A DNA stretch of 42,824 nucleotides, from positions 1 to 42,824 of the forward strand of contig CAKJZO010000017.1 in the NCBI GenBank assembly GCA_918298275.1, read 5' to 3'. Positions within the stretch are counted from its first letter, which is position 1, and each line of letters starts with the position of its first letter. The notes below the pieces were generated by a model. The model worked only from the letters and a program-made list of their open reading frames with translations. It did no database searches and was not told the DNA's origin. Positions 11,856 to 18,369 of the stretch are shown piece after piece. A program made the translations under genes and the position numbers. The DNA is from Spirochaetota bacterium. GTDB lineage: Bacteria; Spirochaetota; Spirochaetia; Sphaerochaetales; Sphaerochaetaceae.

Positions 11856-13619
11856 TCAGAGCGTAAAGCCCTGCCACCTGTCCATGATTTCGTATAGTTT
11901 AAGATAGGGCTCGTCAATCATCCCTATGTTGTCTCCGAACTCCATCAATCTGGTTGAGGAAGCGTTCTGTTCGAACACGGGAAGTCCTTCGCCGTTGGGA
12001 TTGCCGGTCCTTGCGAAATTGGCCCAGTAGCTGTTCATAAGCGAACTCAGGCTGCGGTCTGCATCGCTGTAGAGCTTGGATTCTTCCGGGATTCTGCCGA
12101 AAGCATAGATGAGCTCTCCGCTGTGCCAGCTGCCCAGGCTCCTGTTGTCCATGGAGAAGAGGTACTCGTAGGTCGGAATCCCCTCTTCGGAAGCCAGCCG
12201 GTTGAGACAGTAGTGCGGATAGTTGAAGAACACGGCTCCGTAGACTTCTGCCCAGTATTTGTCTGCTTCGTCATCTGTGCTTGCAGGATAGGCGGCAAGC
12301 ACATCATCGGCAGCATCCCTGAAGTAGGCTCGGATCTTGGACTCGTAGTTCTTCATGTTTGCCTTTCCGAAAATGATGAACGGACCGCTCTCCTCAAGAT
12401 TGAATCCGTGCAGCAATGCCTCTTCATTGTGGATACCCTGCTTCCTCAGTTCGTAAGGGGATGCCGGAAGCACATAGCCGTCTACGGTGATGTGATGCTG
12501 TGAGGAAAGCTCGCCGACCAGGGTCGATGCATCGAGCTTTCTAAGGTCCTCTGCCGAAGAGCAGCTGTATCTGGCCTTCAGAGAGTTTCCGGATCTGAGA
12601 GCCGACTCCAGCGTCCTGTAAGAGTGCGGCGGATTGACGGAAGAGACCGTGCTGCTTTCCAGTATGGCTCTTCTGAACAGGCCCTTTGCAAGCGGAGACA
12701 CGCAGAGGGCATCCACACACACCGAGCCGGCGCTCTCACCCACGATGGTCACATTGTCCGGATCTCCTCCGAAGGCGACGATATTGTCGCGGACCCACTG
12801 AAGGGCCTTGATCTGGTCCAGAAGCCCGTAGTTGCCCGTGGTACCGTCCTCTTTCAGAAGCTGTTCGTCTGCATAGAAACCGAACACTCCGAGACGATAG
12901 CCCATATTGACCGTGACTATGCCGTTTCTTGCAAAAGTCGCGCCGTTGTAATCCTTGTACCAGGGCTGGCCGGTCTGCAGAGATCCGCCGTGGATGTAAA
13001 CCAGAACGGGCAATCCGCTCTGCTTTCCGGCAGGTTTCCAGACATTGATGTAGAGGCTGTCTTCACTTACGGGCGGCCTGTAGTTGTCCTTGAGAGATAT
13101 CTTGTAATCGTGGTAGCCGATTATGCGTACAAGCGAGTCATAGATGGGCAGATTTGTGGTCTGCATGGACATGGGTGCAAAGGATGCGCACTCAAGAACG
13201 CCTTCCCACGGCTCGGGATCCTGCGGGGCTCTCCACCTCAGGTCTCCTACCGGGGGCTTGGCATACGGAATACCGGCAAAGACCTCTACGCTTTTGTCCG
13301 CTGTATACACCCCGCTGACTTTTCCGAACTGTGTATTGATAGCTTCGGTGGCCACGGGCTTGGAAGCATCGGAGGCCGGAACTGCCTTGACTGGAGGCCA
13401 GGATATAATCAGTACCGCAAAGAAGAGAGCGATATAGAGCACCCAAGCGATGAGCTTGAGGACCCACATCTTTGAAAATACGTGCTTGAAGAAAAACGGA
13501 AACACAGCTGCAACGAACAGAAAGATGAGCCACCCCAACATGGTGTTGTGATTGAGTTCTAGAACAGCTGCAAAAAGTGTTGTCAGTATGCCGTAGAAGA
13601 TCCAGAATGCAATCTTCAT
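11856..13619 (-). CDS. membrane-anchored type B carboxylesterase
   Basis: A 587-residue alpha/beta hydrolase. Residues 1-75 hold three hydrophobic helices, unusual for this family, followed by a type-B carboxylesterase domain. It has an oxyanion loop HGGS (210-213), a nucleophile elbow GESAG (S296), a likely acidic residue in GFNLEES and the catalytic His in WHSGELIYAFG. This should hydrolyse carboxylic esters at the cell surface or in the periplasm. The ATG overlaps the stop of the upstream hydrolase (ATGA), so the two are coupled and may act on the same substrate. The three-helix N-terminal anchor is the odd feature; the esterase part has normal length. Confidence 0.85.
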   Translation of the reverse strand: MKIAFWIFYGILTTLFAAVLELNHNTMLGWLIFLFVAAVFPFFFKHVFSKMWVLKLIAWVLYIALFFAVLIISWPPVKAVPASDASKPVATEAINTQFGKVSGVYTADKSVEVFAGIPYAKPPVGDLRWRAPQDPEPWEGVLECASFAPMSMQTTNLPIYDSLVRIIGYHDYKISLKDNYRPPVSEDSLYINVWKPAGKQSGLPVLVYIHGGSLQTGQPWYKDYNGATFARNGIVTVNMGYRLGVFGFYADEQLLKEDGTTGNYGLLDQIKALQWVRDNIVAFGGDPDNVTIVGESAGSVCVDALCVSPLAKGLFRRAILESSTVSSVNPPHSYRTLESALRSGNSLKARYSCSSAEDLRKLDASTLVGELSSQHHITVDGYVLPASPYELRKQGIHNEEALLHGFNLEESGPFIIFGKANMKNYESKIRAYFRDAADDVLAAYPASTDDEADKYWAEVYGAVFFNYPHYCLNRLASEEGIPTYEYLFSMDNRSLGSWHSGELIYAFGRIPEESKLYSDADRSLSSLMNSYWANFARTGNPNGEGLPVFEQNASSTRLMEFGDNIGMIDEPYLKLYEIMDRWQGFTL

Positions 13620-14626
13620 ATCTCAATGTCCTCACCGAGGAAGTATTTTGCACAGAATTTGTCCATGTACTCGATGAACAGCCTCTGCTTGTCGGGATCG
13701 CATATGAGCATGTGGCCTGACTTCTCATAGACAAGACCCACATTGGTCACATTATGCTCTTTAAGGGCTTGCTCGAGGACAAGACGGCTTGCCGGCGGCA
13801 CTATGCCGTCCAGAACGCCGTAGGCAAAGAGGATGGGAACACTGTCATCGGTAATGTAGGTGTAAGGCGATACCTTCTTCCAGTACGCCTCGGCACTGCC
13901 GTCCTTGACCATCTCTTCTGTGACCTCTTCCCCAGAGAACTGGCTGATCCAGGCAGCATCGGCCTTGTAGGAACCGTTGAGGCCCGTGGATTTGAGCATG
14001 AGCTTGTGAAGCTCGCCGTTGCGCCAGATGGAGGGCTCGAAGGTCGAGGGCCCGGACTGCTGGAGGATGAACTTCACGGGAAGAGCGGGATCTGCGTCGG
14101 CAACGTCGAATCCGTACATCATGGCCTGGCAGGCGCCTGCGGAGAAACCGTGGGTGGCCATGTCGACAAGGTTTATTCCTATGTCGGCTTCTGCGCATCT
14201 GGCCTTGATGGCCCCTACTGCAGCCCTGACCTGGCTGTTGACCAGCATGATGTTGGTATCAGTGGTATCGGTCTTGAGGGTATAGCTGATAGTGGCTGCG
14301 GTATAGCCCTTTGATGCGATGTTGCGGCACCAGAGTTCTCCGTCGTTCTTGCTTCCGCTCTGCCAGCTTCCGCCGTGGATAAAGAGAATCAGATGAGTGG
14401 CCTTGGGGTCGGTCGTGTCCTCGGGAAGGTAGAGATCATAGACCTCGCGCTCGCCCTCGCCGTATCTGAGGTCGGTCAGGACAGTGCCGTTGTATTCCAC
14501 CTGGAGAATGCCGTTTGCATCCATCCACTTGCTGCGTGCATCAATGGTTGCAAAGCAGCTCGGAAAGAGCTGAAGAACGGCAAGCCCTAAGGCAACGATA
14601 ATCCCTTTTATTCCAATCGGTTTCAT
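13616..14626 (-). CDS. exported alpha/beta hydrolase (acetyl-esterase-like)
   Basis: A 336-residue hydrolase with a signal peptide; LFPSC at residue 24 may be a lipobox. It has the oxyanion motif FIHGGSW (HGG 84-86), a nucleophile elbow GFSAG (S162), an Asp in GVLDGIVPP and a His in KSGHMLI, which together make a full triad of the BD-FAE/esterase-lipase group. The start at 14626 is supported by AGGGGGA. A second ATG at 14656 also has a possible GAGG site. The open frame extends much further upstream, but that part is antisense-like sequence over the P13-like gene. Translation is coupled to the carboxylesterase downstream. Confidence 0.8.
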   Translation of the reverse strand: MKPIGIKGIIVALGLAVLQLFPSCFATIDARSKWMDANGILQVEYNGTVLTDLRYGEGEREVYDLYLPEDTTDPKATHLILFIHGGSWQSGSKNDGELWCRNIASKGYTAATISYTLKTDTTDTNIMLVNSQVRAAVGAIKARCAEADIGINLVDMATHGFSAGACQAMMYGFDVADADPALPVKFILQQSGPSTFEPSIWRNGELHKLMLKSTGLNGSYKADAAWISQFSGEEVTEEMVKDGSAEAYWKKVSPYTYITDDSVPILFAYGVLDGIVPPASRLVLEQALKEHNVTNVGLVYEKSGHMLICDPDKQRLFIEYMDKFCAKYFLGEDIEI

Positions 14627-14658
14627 TTTTCCCCCTACTTTACCTTTTTCGGCCATCG

Positions 14659-15042
14659 TCAGTACCTCGATGGAGATTGAAGTCCTATGATCTTGGATGC
14701 AATCAGCATTACTACCCCGGAAGCAAGGATTCCGGCACTGATATAGATGTCGGCCTTGGTCACTTCGCCTACCATGGCCCTGTAACCGCTGTACATGAAG
14801 ATGCTTGCCCAGAGGCTCAGTCCACCGGTGACGGCCAGTGCCGACCCGGTGATATCCAAAGCCATTAGCTTCTTTGCAGTCTGCAGATCTCCCTGATGTC
14901 TGGACCCGACTCCGAAACCGATGAAGGTGTTCTGGAGCTGGAACTTCTTTACCTCTTCCTTTGTGAATGAGGCATTGTCCGAAGCATAGAGTGCGGTGCA
15001 GACCAGCAAGGCCAGAAACAGGATTGCAAGTGCTTTCTTCAT
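14659..15042 (-). CDS. small membrane protein resembling spirochaetal P13 family
   Basis: A 127-residue protein with a signal peptide (cleavage near LYASD), then a QNTFIGFGVGSRHQGD segment and two membrane helices. The FGxGS-x-x-QGD pattern and the C-terminal helix ending in an aromatic residue resemble the P13 porin-like family first described in Borrelia and common in spirochaetes; this match is from memory and tentative. The start at 15042 (not 15057) is chosen because a promoter-like -35/-10 pair ends six bases before it and the signal peptide begins there. No ribosome binding site is visible. It lies upstream of the esterase pair on the same strand. Confidence 0.65.
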   Translation of the reverse strand: MKKALAILFLALLVCTALYASDNASFTKEEVKKFQLQNTFIGFGVGSRHQGDLQTAKKLMALDITGSALAVTGGLSLWASIFMYSGYRAMVGEVTKADIYISAGILASGVVMLIASKIIGLQSPSRY

Positions 15043-15048
15043 ACTTTT

Positions 15049-15077
15049 TATATACATCGCACGATGGGAACATTCAA
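15049..15077 (-). promoter_or_regulatory. promoter of the P13-like gene, leaderless spacing
   Basis: On the minus strand TTGAAT (15072-15077) and TATATA (15049-15054) are 17 bases apart, and the -10 box ends six bases before the ATG at 15042. Transcription would start at about the start codon. Confidence 0.5.
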
Positions 15078-15136: not shown

Positions 15137-15262
15137 ATGAACTTCCGAATCCCGTTATGGCTCAGAATCACCATCGCCGCCCTGCTCGGCATTGCCCTGC
15201 TTGCCGTCATCTTCACCGGCGGGAAGATGCTTCTGGACATCTGGACCAACGCTCAGAAATAG
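15137..15262 (+). CDS. 41-residue single-helix membrane protein
   Basis: A short frame starting MNFRIPLWLR and ending WTNAQK, with one hydrophobic helix (about residues 11-28) after a positively charged N-terminus, so the C-terminus is probably outside. I do not recognise a family. Support comes from the promoter-like hexamers with 17-base spacing placed six bases before the ATG, the clean helix design, and its fit in an otherwise empty gap between the P13-like gene and the alcohol dehydrogenase. There is no ribosome binding site, as expected for a leaderless message. The dehydrogenase gene begins 51 bases downstream and may share the transcript. Confidence 0.55.
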   Translation: MNFRIPLWLRITIAALLGIALLAVIFTGGKMLLDIWTNAQK

Positions 15263-15313
15263 TTTGAGAACTCATTCGAGCTATAGTAGAATTGGAAGAC
15301 AGCAGGAGAGACG

Positions 15314-16468
15314 ATGCAGAACTTCACATACAACATCCCCACGATCATTAACTTCGGAATCGACCAGCTTTCCCATCTGGCCGACCTCAGGGAGTCCGGG
15401 GACAGAGTGCTCTATGTCTACGGCGGCGGCTCGATCAAAGCCAACGGGCTCTACGACAGATCCATGAAGATCCTCAGGGATGCAGGACTTGAAGTATACG
15501 AGCTTGCGGGAATAGAACCCAATCCGAGGATCCAGACCATCCGCGAGGGCGTGAATATCTGCAGAAACAAGATGGTGGACATGGTCCTGGCCGTCGGCGG
15601 AGGATCCGTAATCGACAGCGCCAAGGTCATAGCTGCAGGCGCCTGTTACGACGGCGACCCGTGGGACCTGGTCATCAAGCCCGAGCTGATTTCGGAATGC
15701 CTTCCCATCTATACGGTTCTCACCATTGCCGCAACAGGAAGCGAGATGGACACGTTCGCAGTCATCTCCGACCTGACAAAGAATGAGAAATGGGGAACCT
15801 GGTCCGATTTCTTCGCTCCCAGGATGTCAATCCTGGACCCGACTCTCACCTACAGCGTCCCCAGAAGGCAGACCAGCGCCGGTGTGGCCGACATCATGAG
15901 TCATACACTGGAGAACTACTTCAACAACGAGAAGGGAGCCTACCTTCAGGCACGTCTGGCTGAGGGAATTCTCAAGACCCTCATCAACTACGGTCCCATA
16001 GCATTGGAACAGCCCGACAACTACGAGGCCAGGGCGAATCTGATGTGGAGCTCGTCGCTTGCCATCAACGGGCTTCTGTCCTGCGGATCAAATGTCGGCT
16101 GGGCGGTACACCCCATGGAGCACGAACTCTCGGCATTCTATGACATCACACACGGCGAGGGCCTTGCCATCCTCACCCCTCACTTCCTGGAATTCGCCCT
16201 CAACAAGGACAATGTCTGGAAGTATGTAGAGTATGCCAAGAACGTGTTCGGCATCACCGAAGGAACCGAGATGGAGATCGCACGCGATGCGATCCGTGCA
16301 ACCAAGGATTTCTTCAAGCGCATGAGGCTGCCCTCCACCCTCTCCGAACTGGGAATCGATGACGAATACTTCGACATCATGGCAGAAAAGGCGGCCGCAG
16401 GCTGCTTCGGAACTTTCGTCGAGCTTACCAAGGACGATATCATCTCGATCTTCAGGGCATCGCTCTGA
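15314..16468 (+). CDS. iron-containing alcohol dehydrogenase
   Basis: A 384-residue member of the group III alcohol dehydrogenases (butanol dehydrogenase/YqhD type), which reduce aldehydes with NAD(P)H during fermentation. The cofactor-binding GGGSVIDSAK lies near residue 96. The metal-binding region includes DPTLTYSVP, the GVADIMSHTLENY helix and the HPMEHELSAFYDITHGEGLAI block with its conserved His residues. AGGAG precedes the ATG. An XRE regulator starts 12 bases after the stop and is probably cotranscribed. Substrate (butanal, lactaldehyde or other) cannot be told from sequence alone. Confidence 0.9.
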   Translation: MQNFTYNIPTIINFGIDQLSHLADLRESGDRVLYVYGGGSIKANGLYDRSMKILRDAGLEVYELAGIEPNPRIQTIREGVNICRNKMVDMVLAVGGGSVIDSAKVIAAGACYDGDPWDLVIKPELISECLPIYTVLTIAATGSEMDTFAVISDLTKNEKWGTWSDFFAPRMSILDPTLTYSVPRRQTSAGVADIMSHTLENYFNNEKGAYLQARLAEGILKTLINYGPIALEQPDNYEARANLMWSSSLAINGLLSCGSNVGWAVHPMEHELSAFYDITHGEGLAILTPHFLEFALNKDNVWKYVEYAKNVFGITEGTEMEIARDAIRATKDFFKRMRLPSTLSELGIDDEYFDIMAEKAAAGCFGTFVELTKDDIISIFRASL

Positions 16469-16480
16469 CATGCTGCTGCA

Positions 16481-17122
16481 ATGGGCTTTCTGATGGATAG
16501 TTACATCACTGGTGAGAGAATCTCACACCTACGCGAGGAGAAGGGCCTGTCCCAGCTGGAACTGGGAGAGGCTCTGGGCGTGAGCTGGGATACCGTGTCC
16601 AAGTGGGAAGATGATACCGTGCACCCCGATATCTCCATGCTTAACGACCTTGCCAAGGCCCTCGGAGTATCGATCGACCAGCTTCTCGAGGATGTTGAAA
16701 TAGTAAATTCCAATCAGGGAATCGACATCAATGAATCCGCCTTCCATGTCTGTCCGGTCTGCGGAAACATCATCACAAGTGCCGGCAACGCACAGGTCTC
16801 CTGCTGCGGGGTAAGTCTCCCCGCCCTTGAGAGCGAAATCTGTGACGACGAGCACATGATCGAGTATGAGGAATCCGACGGCGAATACTATGTGACCGTC
16901 GAGCACGAGATGACCAAGAGCCACTACATCTCGTTCCTGTCCTGCGTCGGCAGCGATGCGGTCCATATTGCAAAAACCTACCCCGAATGGTACTGCCAGG
17001 CAAGATTCCCGGTTTCGCCCAAGGCAAAGCTCTACTGCTACTGCAACCGCCACGGCCTGTTCCGCAAGGACATCAGGGCCGCCCGAAAGCATGACGAGTT
17101 CGCGGATCTTCCGGATTTATAG
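16481..17122 (+). CDS. XRE-family regulator fused to a complete desulfoferrodoxin domain
   Basis: A 213-residue fusion. Residues about 10-70 are an XRE helix-turn-helix (LSQLELGEALGVSWDTVSKWE). Residues 89-112 have C91-x2-C94 and C108-C109, the pattern of the desulforedoxin Fe(Cys)4 site. Residues 120-195 match the superoxide reductase domain: E124-H125, H142 and H148 six apart, and C188-x2-H191, which supply the expected four His and one Cys ligands. The catalytic-site Lys next to the Glu in classical enzymes is not obvious. An iron-based redox or superoxide-sensing regulator is the natural inference. An alternative start at 16493 would drop four residues; neither start has a good ribosome binding site. 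It follows the alcohol dehydrogenase closely. Confidence 0.85.
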   Translation: MGFLMDSYITGERISHLREEKGLSQLELGEALGVSWDTVSKWEDDTVHPDISMLNDLAKALGVSIDQLLEDVEIVNSNQGIDINESAFHVCPVCGNIITSAGNAQVSCCGVSLPALESEICDDEHMIEYEESDGEYYVTVEHEMTKSHYISFLSCVGSDAVHIAKTYPEWYCQARFPVSPKAKLYCYCNRHGLFRKDIRAARKHDEFADLPDL

Positions 17123-17146: not shown

Positions 17147-17175
17147 TTGACACGATTCGTCAGATTCATCACAAT
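17147..17175 (+). promoter_or_regulatory. promoter of the PLP enzyme gene, leaderless spacing
   Basis: A perfect TTGACA (17147-17152), a 17-base spacer and CACAAT (17170-17175) end exactly six bases before the ATG at 17182. No ribosome binding site lies in between. Confidence 0.6.
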
Positions 17176-17181
17176 CACCGC

Positions 17182-18369
17182 ATGGATCTTTTTGACAAGT
17201 TTTCAGACAAAAACAGCAATTATCAGAAGGCATTGGATGCCCGTAGTGCCGATATATACCCCTATTTTCACTGTCTCGAGTCCCGTCAGGCTCCGGAAGT
17301 CATCATGGAAGGCAAGCGCCGCATCATGCTGGGGTCCAACAACTACCTCGGACTGACCTCCGAGAAGTCGGTCATCGATGCCGGAATCAAGGCCCTCGAG
17401 AAGTACGGAACCGGCTGCTCGGGCTCCCGCTTCCTGAACGGAACGCTGGATCTGCACCTCAAGCTTGAAAAAGAGCTCTCTGCATTCCTGCACAAGGAAG
17501 CCGCAATGACATTCTCCACCGGATTCCAGAGCAACCTGGGTATCCTGAGCGCCATCTGCACCAAGGGCGACTACATCATCTGCGACCGCGAGAACCACGC
17601 CAGCATCTACGACGGCGCAAAGCTCTCCTACGCCGAGATGGTCCGCTACTTCCACAACGATATGGACAGCCTCGAGCGTGTTCTCAACAAGCTGGGCTCC
17701 GATACCCCCAAGCTCATCGTAACCGACGGAGTCTTCTCCATGAGCGGCGATATCGCCAAGCTCCCTGATATCGTGGATCTTGCCCGCAAATACAACGCCA
17801 GAATCATGGTGGACGATTCCCACGGTGTCGGAACAGTCGGCGAAGGCGGCAGAGGAACTGCCTCCTACTTCGGTCTCGAGGACCAGGTGGACATCATCAT
17901 GGGAACCTTCAGCAAGTCCTTTGCAAGTCTCGGAGGCTTTGCGGTGGCTTCGGAACCAGTTATCGACTACATGTGCCACATGTCCAGGCCCTACATCTTC
18001 TCGGCAAGCCTGCCACCTGCAAACGCAGCCACCGCAACTGCCGCACTGGAGTACCTGGTTGTACATCCCGAACTGAAGGACCAGCTCTCAACTGTCGCCG
18101 GATGGCTCAGAAGCGCTCTTGCCGAGCGCGGAGTAAGGTTCAAGGAAACCCTCACCCCGATTGTCCCGATCTACACCACCGACAGATTCACCACGCTGCG
18201 CATAGTCCGCGATCTCTACAACGAGGGAGTGTTCGTCAACGCCGTACTTCCCCCTGCCACCGCCGAGAACGAGTGCCTCATCCGCACAAGCCTCATGGCA
18301 AACATCAGCCGCCCCCTCATCGAGGAAGCTGCCGACAAGATTGCCGAGGTGCTGGGAAGGTATCTGTAG
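17182..18369 (+). CDS. alpha-oxoamine synthase, serine-palmitoyltransferase-like
   Basis: A 395-residue PLP-dependent enzyme of the alpha-oxoamine synthase family, which condense an amino acid with an acyl-CoA and release CO2. The internal aldimine Lys is in GTFSKSFASLGG, the PLP-contacting Asp/His pair in VDDSHGVG, and the substrate His in RENHASIYD. The N-terminal block (YPYFHCLES, then LGSNNYLGLT and YGTGCSGSRFLNGTLDLH) looks more like Bacteroidetes serine palmitoyltransferases than like BioF or Kbl, but 2-amino-3-ketobutyrate ligase activity cannot be excluded. No other sphingolipid, biotin or threonine-degradation gene lies in the window. It appears to be expressed from its own promoter. 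Confidence 0.82.
   Translation: MDLFDKFSDKNSNYQKALDARSADIYPYFHCLESRQAPEVIMEGKRRIMLGSNNYLGLTSEKSVIDAGIKALEKYGTGCSGSRFLNGTLDLHLKLEKELSAFLHKEAAMTFSTGFQSNLGILSAICTKGDYIICDRENHASIYDGAKLSYAEMVRYFHNDMDSLERVLNKLGSDTPKLIVTDGVFSMSGDIAKLPDIVDLARKYNARIMVDDSHGVGTVGEGGRGTASYFGLEDQVDIIMGTFSKSFASLGGFAVASEPVIDYMCHMSRPYIFSASLPPANAATATAALEYLVVHPELKDQLSTVAGWLRSALAERGVRFKETLTPIVPIYTTDRFTTLRIVRDLYNEGVFVNAVLPPATAENECLIRTSLMANISRPLIEEAADKIAEVLGRYL

Follow-up and report, generated by a model that had tools for sequence, protein, structure and literature searches.

The window analyzed here is a contig of 42,824 nucleotides from an assembly of 1.83 Mb (86% complete) whose close relatives are rumen Spirochaetales assemblies. 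On its forward strand, an open reading frame (ORF) at 16,481–17,122 translates to 213 amino acids and joins an XRE/Cro-type helix-turn-helix (HTH) domain to a domain of the desulfoferrodoxin or superoxide reductase (SOR) type, an arrangement known as HTH-Dx-SOR. The residue equivalent to M5 is a methionine in all aligned family members (10/10), so translation probably starts there, which would place the gene at 16,493–17,122 (+). The HTH domain covers residues 11–72 (16,511–16,696, +). A profile search placed HTH_3 on residues 17–68 (E 9.7e-13, 48.4 bits against a gathering score of 23), and in Foldseek the domain matched the P22 c2 repressor (TMt 0.83). The desulfoferrodoxin model TIGR00320 aligned with residues 88–196 (E 7.3e-12); against this dfx_rbo equivalog model the protein scores 45.6 bits, below the curated cut-off of 146.9. 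The closest solved sequence was the SOR of D. baarsii (2ji2, E 3.2e-8), and this alignment pairs all nine iron ligands. Four cysteines, C91, C94, C108, and C109 (CX2CX13CC; 16,751–16,807, +), would form centre I, of the Fe(Cys)4 type, while H125, H142, H148, C188, and H191 (16,844–17,053, +) would form the SOR-type centre II, with its signature HX5H...CX2H (H142-X5-H148, C188-X2-H191).

An AlphaFold2 model of the protein, with 50 homologues as input, had a mean pLDDT of 86.9, and its C-terminal domain matched SORs in Foldseek (2ji2, E 1.3e-10, TMt 0.72; T. pallidum 1y07, TMt 0.78). Compared with the nearest orthologue, in genome G050, the gene is under purifying selection (pN 0.018, pS 0.355). 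Given the model confidence, the structural match to SORs, and this selection, the ORF and its ligand set are not due to chance. The initial annotation had described a protein that binds DNA and has every ligand of both iron centres. Its placement of the ORF is confirmed, as is that of all nine ligands, which the 2ji2 alignment pairs; its internal spacings of six (H142 to H148) and three (C188 to H191) residues are correct, and the predicted fold agrees with it.

Upstream on the same strand lies an alcohol dehydrogenase gene of the Fe-ADH family (15,314–16,468; nearest NCBIfam model PRK15138, 324 of 645 bits), and its ORF ends 12 nt before the annotated HTH-Dx-SOR ORF. Because of this short gap, the two genes are probably co-transcribed. 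Before both is a promoter-like site (TTGAGA-17-TAGAAT; 15,264–15,292, +), recognized only by its match to the consensus. An unannotated ORF for a 41-residue predicted membrane peptide (15,137–15,262, +) is conserved in eight genomes of the genus. In G068, it lies directly upstream of the HTH-Dx-SOR gene, and in G025, G060, and G072 directly before the equivalent of the serine-palmitoyltransferase-like gene found at 17,182 in the window. Since the small ORF adjoins that equivalent in the latter three genomes, the window lineage appears to have gained the dehydrogenase and HTH genes by insertion. Divergent from the dehydrogenase and HTH pair (11,856–15,057, −) are a carboxylesterase gene, a gene for an esterase of the BD-FAE type, and one coding for a small membrane protein. 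At locus L197, the HTH gene likewise has a BD-FAE-type homologue (35%) beside it.

Distribution of the family and its operator

A genome scan yielded at least 532 confirmed relatives, which are abundant in rumen and gut Clostridia and in Treponema. A viral or plasmid origin was considered and rejected. The matches came to one partial, HTH-only viral match, one phage-labelled contig, and two plasmid-collection records, so few that the gene does not appear to be a typical mobile gene.

The upstream regions of the homologues share the motif TCYACG-NNN-CGTRGGT(T/A)G, a dyad of CYACG and CGTRG. Scores of at least 11 out of 15 were obtained for 76 of 80 upstream regions, compared with 19 of 1600 shuffled controls. 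In 60 of 74 non-identical sequences, an extended −10 element (TGnTAnnnT) stands exactly 17 nt downstream of the motif. Little information is carried by the bases that flank or separate these two elements, and the right half-site of the dyad abuts a weak −35 (TWGNNT). If transcription is assumed to start about 7 nt after the −10, the centre of the dyad is estimated to lie near −43, a position that we take to recall that of the CI site at lambda PRM. Such a promoter geometry allows repression or lambda-PRM-like activation alike. Because the dyad is conserved at the protein's own gene, we infer that the HTH-Dx-SOR protein itself binds it. In a distant member on a Monoglobus pectinilyticus plasmid (L209), the −10 is preceded in the same geometry by a different perfect dyad, CAAACG-GAG-CGTTTG, suggesting that the operator has drifted with its geometry conserved. 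An HTH-Dx-SOR gene with a perfect operator is also present in L210 (MT835563.1), an unverified phage-labelled clone from human faeces; this contig may be bacterial sequence.

Outside the family's own promoters, the operator was rarely encountered. The exact 16-base pattern occurred 11 times in 101 genomes, nine times at HTH-Dx-SOR promoters and twice inside unrelated coding sequences. With one mismatch allowed, 17 of 20 carrier genomes had matches, and in all 17 these included one at the own gene; a looser core gave nine matches in eight carrier genomes, eight of them at the own gene. The extra sites were considered as a possible regulon and rejected, as the two exact extras are intragenic and the four one-mismatch extras in the 20 genomes share no gene. 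A reversed control pattern gave more matches in the one-mismatch scan than these four. Around all 51 stand-alone SOR loci scanned, the operator core was absent. No neighbouring gene was common to more than 7 of the 96 homologous loci, and in about half of the loci a convergent gene lies directly 3′ of the HTH-Dx-SOR gene. With the operator at the own gene and elsewhere only sporadic, the simplest reading is an autogenous circuit that controls few or no other genes; exact-pattern scans could miss the degenerate sites of a wider regulon.

Iron ligands and the lysine before the first histidine

Conservation was assessed in 96 full-length homologues, 75 from a pattern search and 21 spirochaete proteins from an unfiltered genome search. 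The four cysteines and H142 are kept in all 96, H148 and C188 in 93 each, H125 in 89, and H191 in 84. All five centre II ligands are present in the window protein, as aligned to 2ji2, and in 83 of the 96 homologues: 70 of the 75 from the pattern search, a mostly clostridial set that the search patterns enrich for H148 and the CxxC pair, and 13 of the 21 spirochaete proteins gathered without such preselection. The initial annotation had held that routine loss of the His and Cys ligands among homologues would count against it. Loss is indeed frequent in the unfiltered spirochaete set (8/21), but not in the pattern-selected set (5/75). Losses other than H191 to Asp occur only within the taxonomic family to which the window belongs. 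The change of H191 to Asp (CxxD) recurs in nine HTH-Dx-SOR proteins of several lineages (L021, L022, L023, L026, L079, L087, L092, L099, and L103), and these variants possibly have a different metal or ligand set. From the retention counts, the Cys4 site looks indispensable, and the SOR site looks usually, not always, kept. In the window protein, centre I has all four cysteines but the spacing CX2CX13CC instead of the canonical CX2CX15CC. The X13 form is found in 93 of 96 HTH relatives, compared with X15 in 40 of 42 stand-alone Dx-SORs. In G080, a 132-residue ORF (L028:1474–1869, +) consists of an HTH-class SOR domain without the HTH and is apparently a derivative that has lost its DNA-binding head.

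The residue immediately before the first histidine is lysine in 46 of 47 stand-alone SORs, including 29 of 30 from spirochaetes and 17 of 17 from HTH-carrier genomes. Among the 89 HTH proteins that keep this histidine, it is lysine in one and Glu or Asp in 68, and the proline at +2 has become Ile in 72. The canonical Glu47-Lys48 pair is absent from the window protein, which has Asp-Glu (D123-E124) instead. A Glu adjoining the first histidine had been noted in the initial annotation and is present (E124, codon 16,850–16,852), but it stands at the position of Lys48 in the canonical E47-K48-H49, with Asp123 at that of Glu47. For the D. baarsii enzyme, PMC2824530 describes bound peroxide as hydrogen-bonded to Lys48, which assists protonation toward product. 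In a tree of 143 SOR domains, all 96 HTH members fell on one side of a branch with 100/99 support. The HTH protein is probably not catalytically equivalent to a canonical SOR. Loss of the lysine does not prove loss of activity, because SORs without conserved second-sphere residues can work, for example, the Nanoarchaeum enzyme without the glutamate, named in a title that PMC3116461 cites. A separate canonical SOR was found in 20 of 26 carrier genomes, and in 14 of 22 in the window's family. Since most carriers hold such an enzyme, the HTH protein would not usually be the cell's only SOR. No separate SOR was found in the other six of the 26, including the complete T. ruminis chromosome, and in those six the HTH protein might be the enzyme.

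These data bear on what the domain does. The protein could be a working SOR or scavenger whose HTH adjusts only its own synthesis, like bifunctional enzyme-repressors. Such an enzyme would fit the complete centre II of 83 homologues, the six carriers without another SOR, and a dyad that is essentially limited to the own gene, so that the protein itself is the output. We nevertheless consider it unlikely, given that the catalytic lysine is gone across the class whereas the stand-alone SORs of the same genomes keep EKH[VI]P, and that some members, such as L018 and L026, have lost ligands and still have the operator. The idea of a DNA-targeted superoxide reductase, put forward in the initial annotation, is weakened by the missing proton-donating lysine and by the separate canonical SOR of most carriers. 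A structural role for the domain appears quite improbable. Here, a Cys4 metal (Zn or Fe) would serve as part of a dimerisation module, with centre II as a fading relic, which would agree with cysteines kept throughout, with the incomplete centre II of 8 of 21 spirochaete homologues, and with the repeated replacement of H191 by Asp. However, five intact ligands in 70 of the 75 pattern-selected homologues are hard to account for without selection, although the search patterns enrich this set for H148 and CxxC.

The window copy and the proposed circuit

No match above chance to the family operator was found in the window. Among the 80 upstream regions, those of L001, L009, and L010 score at background. 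Residue 37 of the window protein, in the recognition helix, is Asp (codon 16,589–16,591). In 93 of the 96 homologues this position is Lys; the three with Asp, L001, L009, and L010, all lack an operator, as does just one other gene, L072, which keeps Lys. The sister L011 has kept both Lys37 and an operator-like site. On another contig of the same genome is a paralogue, L002, which is 50% identical, has an intact 216-residue ORF, and carries a perfect operator upstream. Judged from its sequence, the window copy is a derived paralogue, because its operator is gone, Lys37 has become Asp, and an alcohol dehydrogenase gene precedes it. A different site has probably become its target. When the regions upstream of the 41-residue ORF, the dehydrogenase, and the HTH gene were searched for a dyad that could serve the window copy as operator, no convincing candidate emerged. 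An ACG-ATT-CGT dyad at 17,152, over the −35 of the downstream gene (17,182), was set aside because it is not conserved in G050.

A classical repressor whose regulon includes the neighbouring dehydrogenase, the target suggested in the initial annotation, is highly unlikely: the 12-nt gap with probable co-transcription and the promoter-like site before both genes would suit it, but the window lacks the family operator, adjacency is seen only in the window genome and one relative (96% identical protein; L009/L196), the dyad near the promoter of the 17,182 gene is not conserved in G050, and no neighbour is conserved among the 96 loci surveyed. On this last ground and on the absent operator, the dehydrogenase was rejected as a conserved target.

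The reading that we favour, with a probability of roughly 0.55, is that of a protein that senses redox state or iron within an autogenous circuit, the window copy now acting at a new site. Direct sensing of superoxide, peroxide, or iron had been offered in the initial annotation and appears to be the most plausible role for the protein. A Cro/C1-type DNA-binding head is joined to a two-iron desulfoferrodoxin-like domain. By sensing redox state or iron, this domain would tune the DNA affinity of the head; it would not be the cell's working SOR. The lysine that assists protonation of bound peroxide has given way to another residue, in most cases Glu or Asp. The iron would be oxidised to a longer-lived state by superoxide, peroxide, or O2, or would be lost, and the fold would pass this on to the DNA-binding head. 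In the ancestral circuit, the protein would sit on one dyad, TCYACG-NNN-CGTRGGT, abutting its own −35, and the main output would be its own level. The window copy would act at another site after loss of the operator and change of the recognition helix. The computation establishes the fold, the ligands, the missing lysine, the conserved self-operator and its near absence elsewhere, and the divergence of the window copy; iron binding, the signal, its coupling to DNA binding, the sign of regulation, and what the window copy targets are our inferences. Against this reading, 8 of 21 spirochaete homologues lack centre II ligands, so that DNA binding may not depend on that site.

More tentatively, and at less than even odds, this picture could be extended to the whole protein family, widespread in gut anaerobes, in which the SOR fold minus its proton donor would have become a superoxide, peroxide, or iron switch that controls its own gene alone through one promoter site, with window-type copies having escaped to a new target by a change of the recognition helix. 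No transcription regulator built on an SOR iron site is known to have been characterised. If the SOR-type site does report superoxide, peroxide, or iron to the head, it would represent a type of sensor in strict anaerobes that differs from both PerR and OxyR. Through the dyad, the promoter geometry, and the Lys-to-Glu change, the sensor idea is open to direct testing.

Relation to known systems

The architecture itself is not new and has been catalogued since 2011, when SORGOdb named it HTH-Dx-SOR and listed 19 proteins (PMC3116461). The main text of that paper defines the class by architecture only (PMC3116461). Within the open-licence literature, which omits most subscription journals, the SORGOdb paper was the only one found on the class; neither an experimental study of it nor a report of an XRE fusion was found there. 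The family analyzed here shares with the SORGOdb class the N-terminal HTH before a desulforedoxin and SOR module, as well as the HX5H...CX2H signature. It differs from the SORGOdb description in the replaced Lys48, the X13 instead of X15 loop of centre I, and the conserved self-operator, and the window copy departs further from the class in having lost the operator and changed its recognition helix.

Two-iron SORs or desulfoferrodoxins (2ji1, 2ji2, 1dfx, and 1y07 of T. pallidum) have the same fold as the C-terminal domain (TMt 0.72–0.78 over about 121 columns) and the same positions of all centre II ligands. Unlike them, the HTH proteins have an added HTH, have not kept Lys48 or, in most, Glu47, have Ile for the +2 Pro, and score far below the TIGR00320 cut-off. 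Repressors of the Cro/C1 type (P22 c2, 3jxb) share the HTH fold (TMt 0.83, 38% identity), but the C-terminal domain here is a metal protein and not a LexA-like protease domain. Another XRE-family spirochaete regulator, and to that extent similar to the window protein, is TrtA (TDE_0127) of Treponema denticola, which affects oxygen tolerance (PMC12724145). It was considered as a desulfoferrodoxin regulator and dropped, since its authors report a C-terminal part that resembles no functional protein (PMC12724145). By its architecture and centre II signature, and with a shorter centre I loop, the window protein is a member of the HTH-Dx-SOR class, to which the loss of the lysine, the self-operator, and a retargeted copy appear to be new additions.
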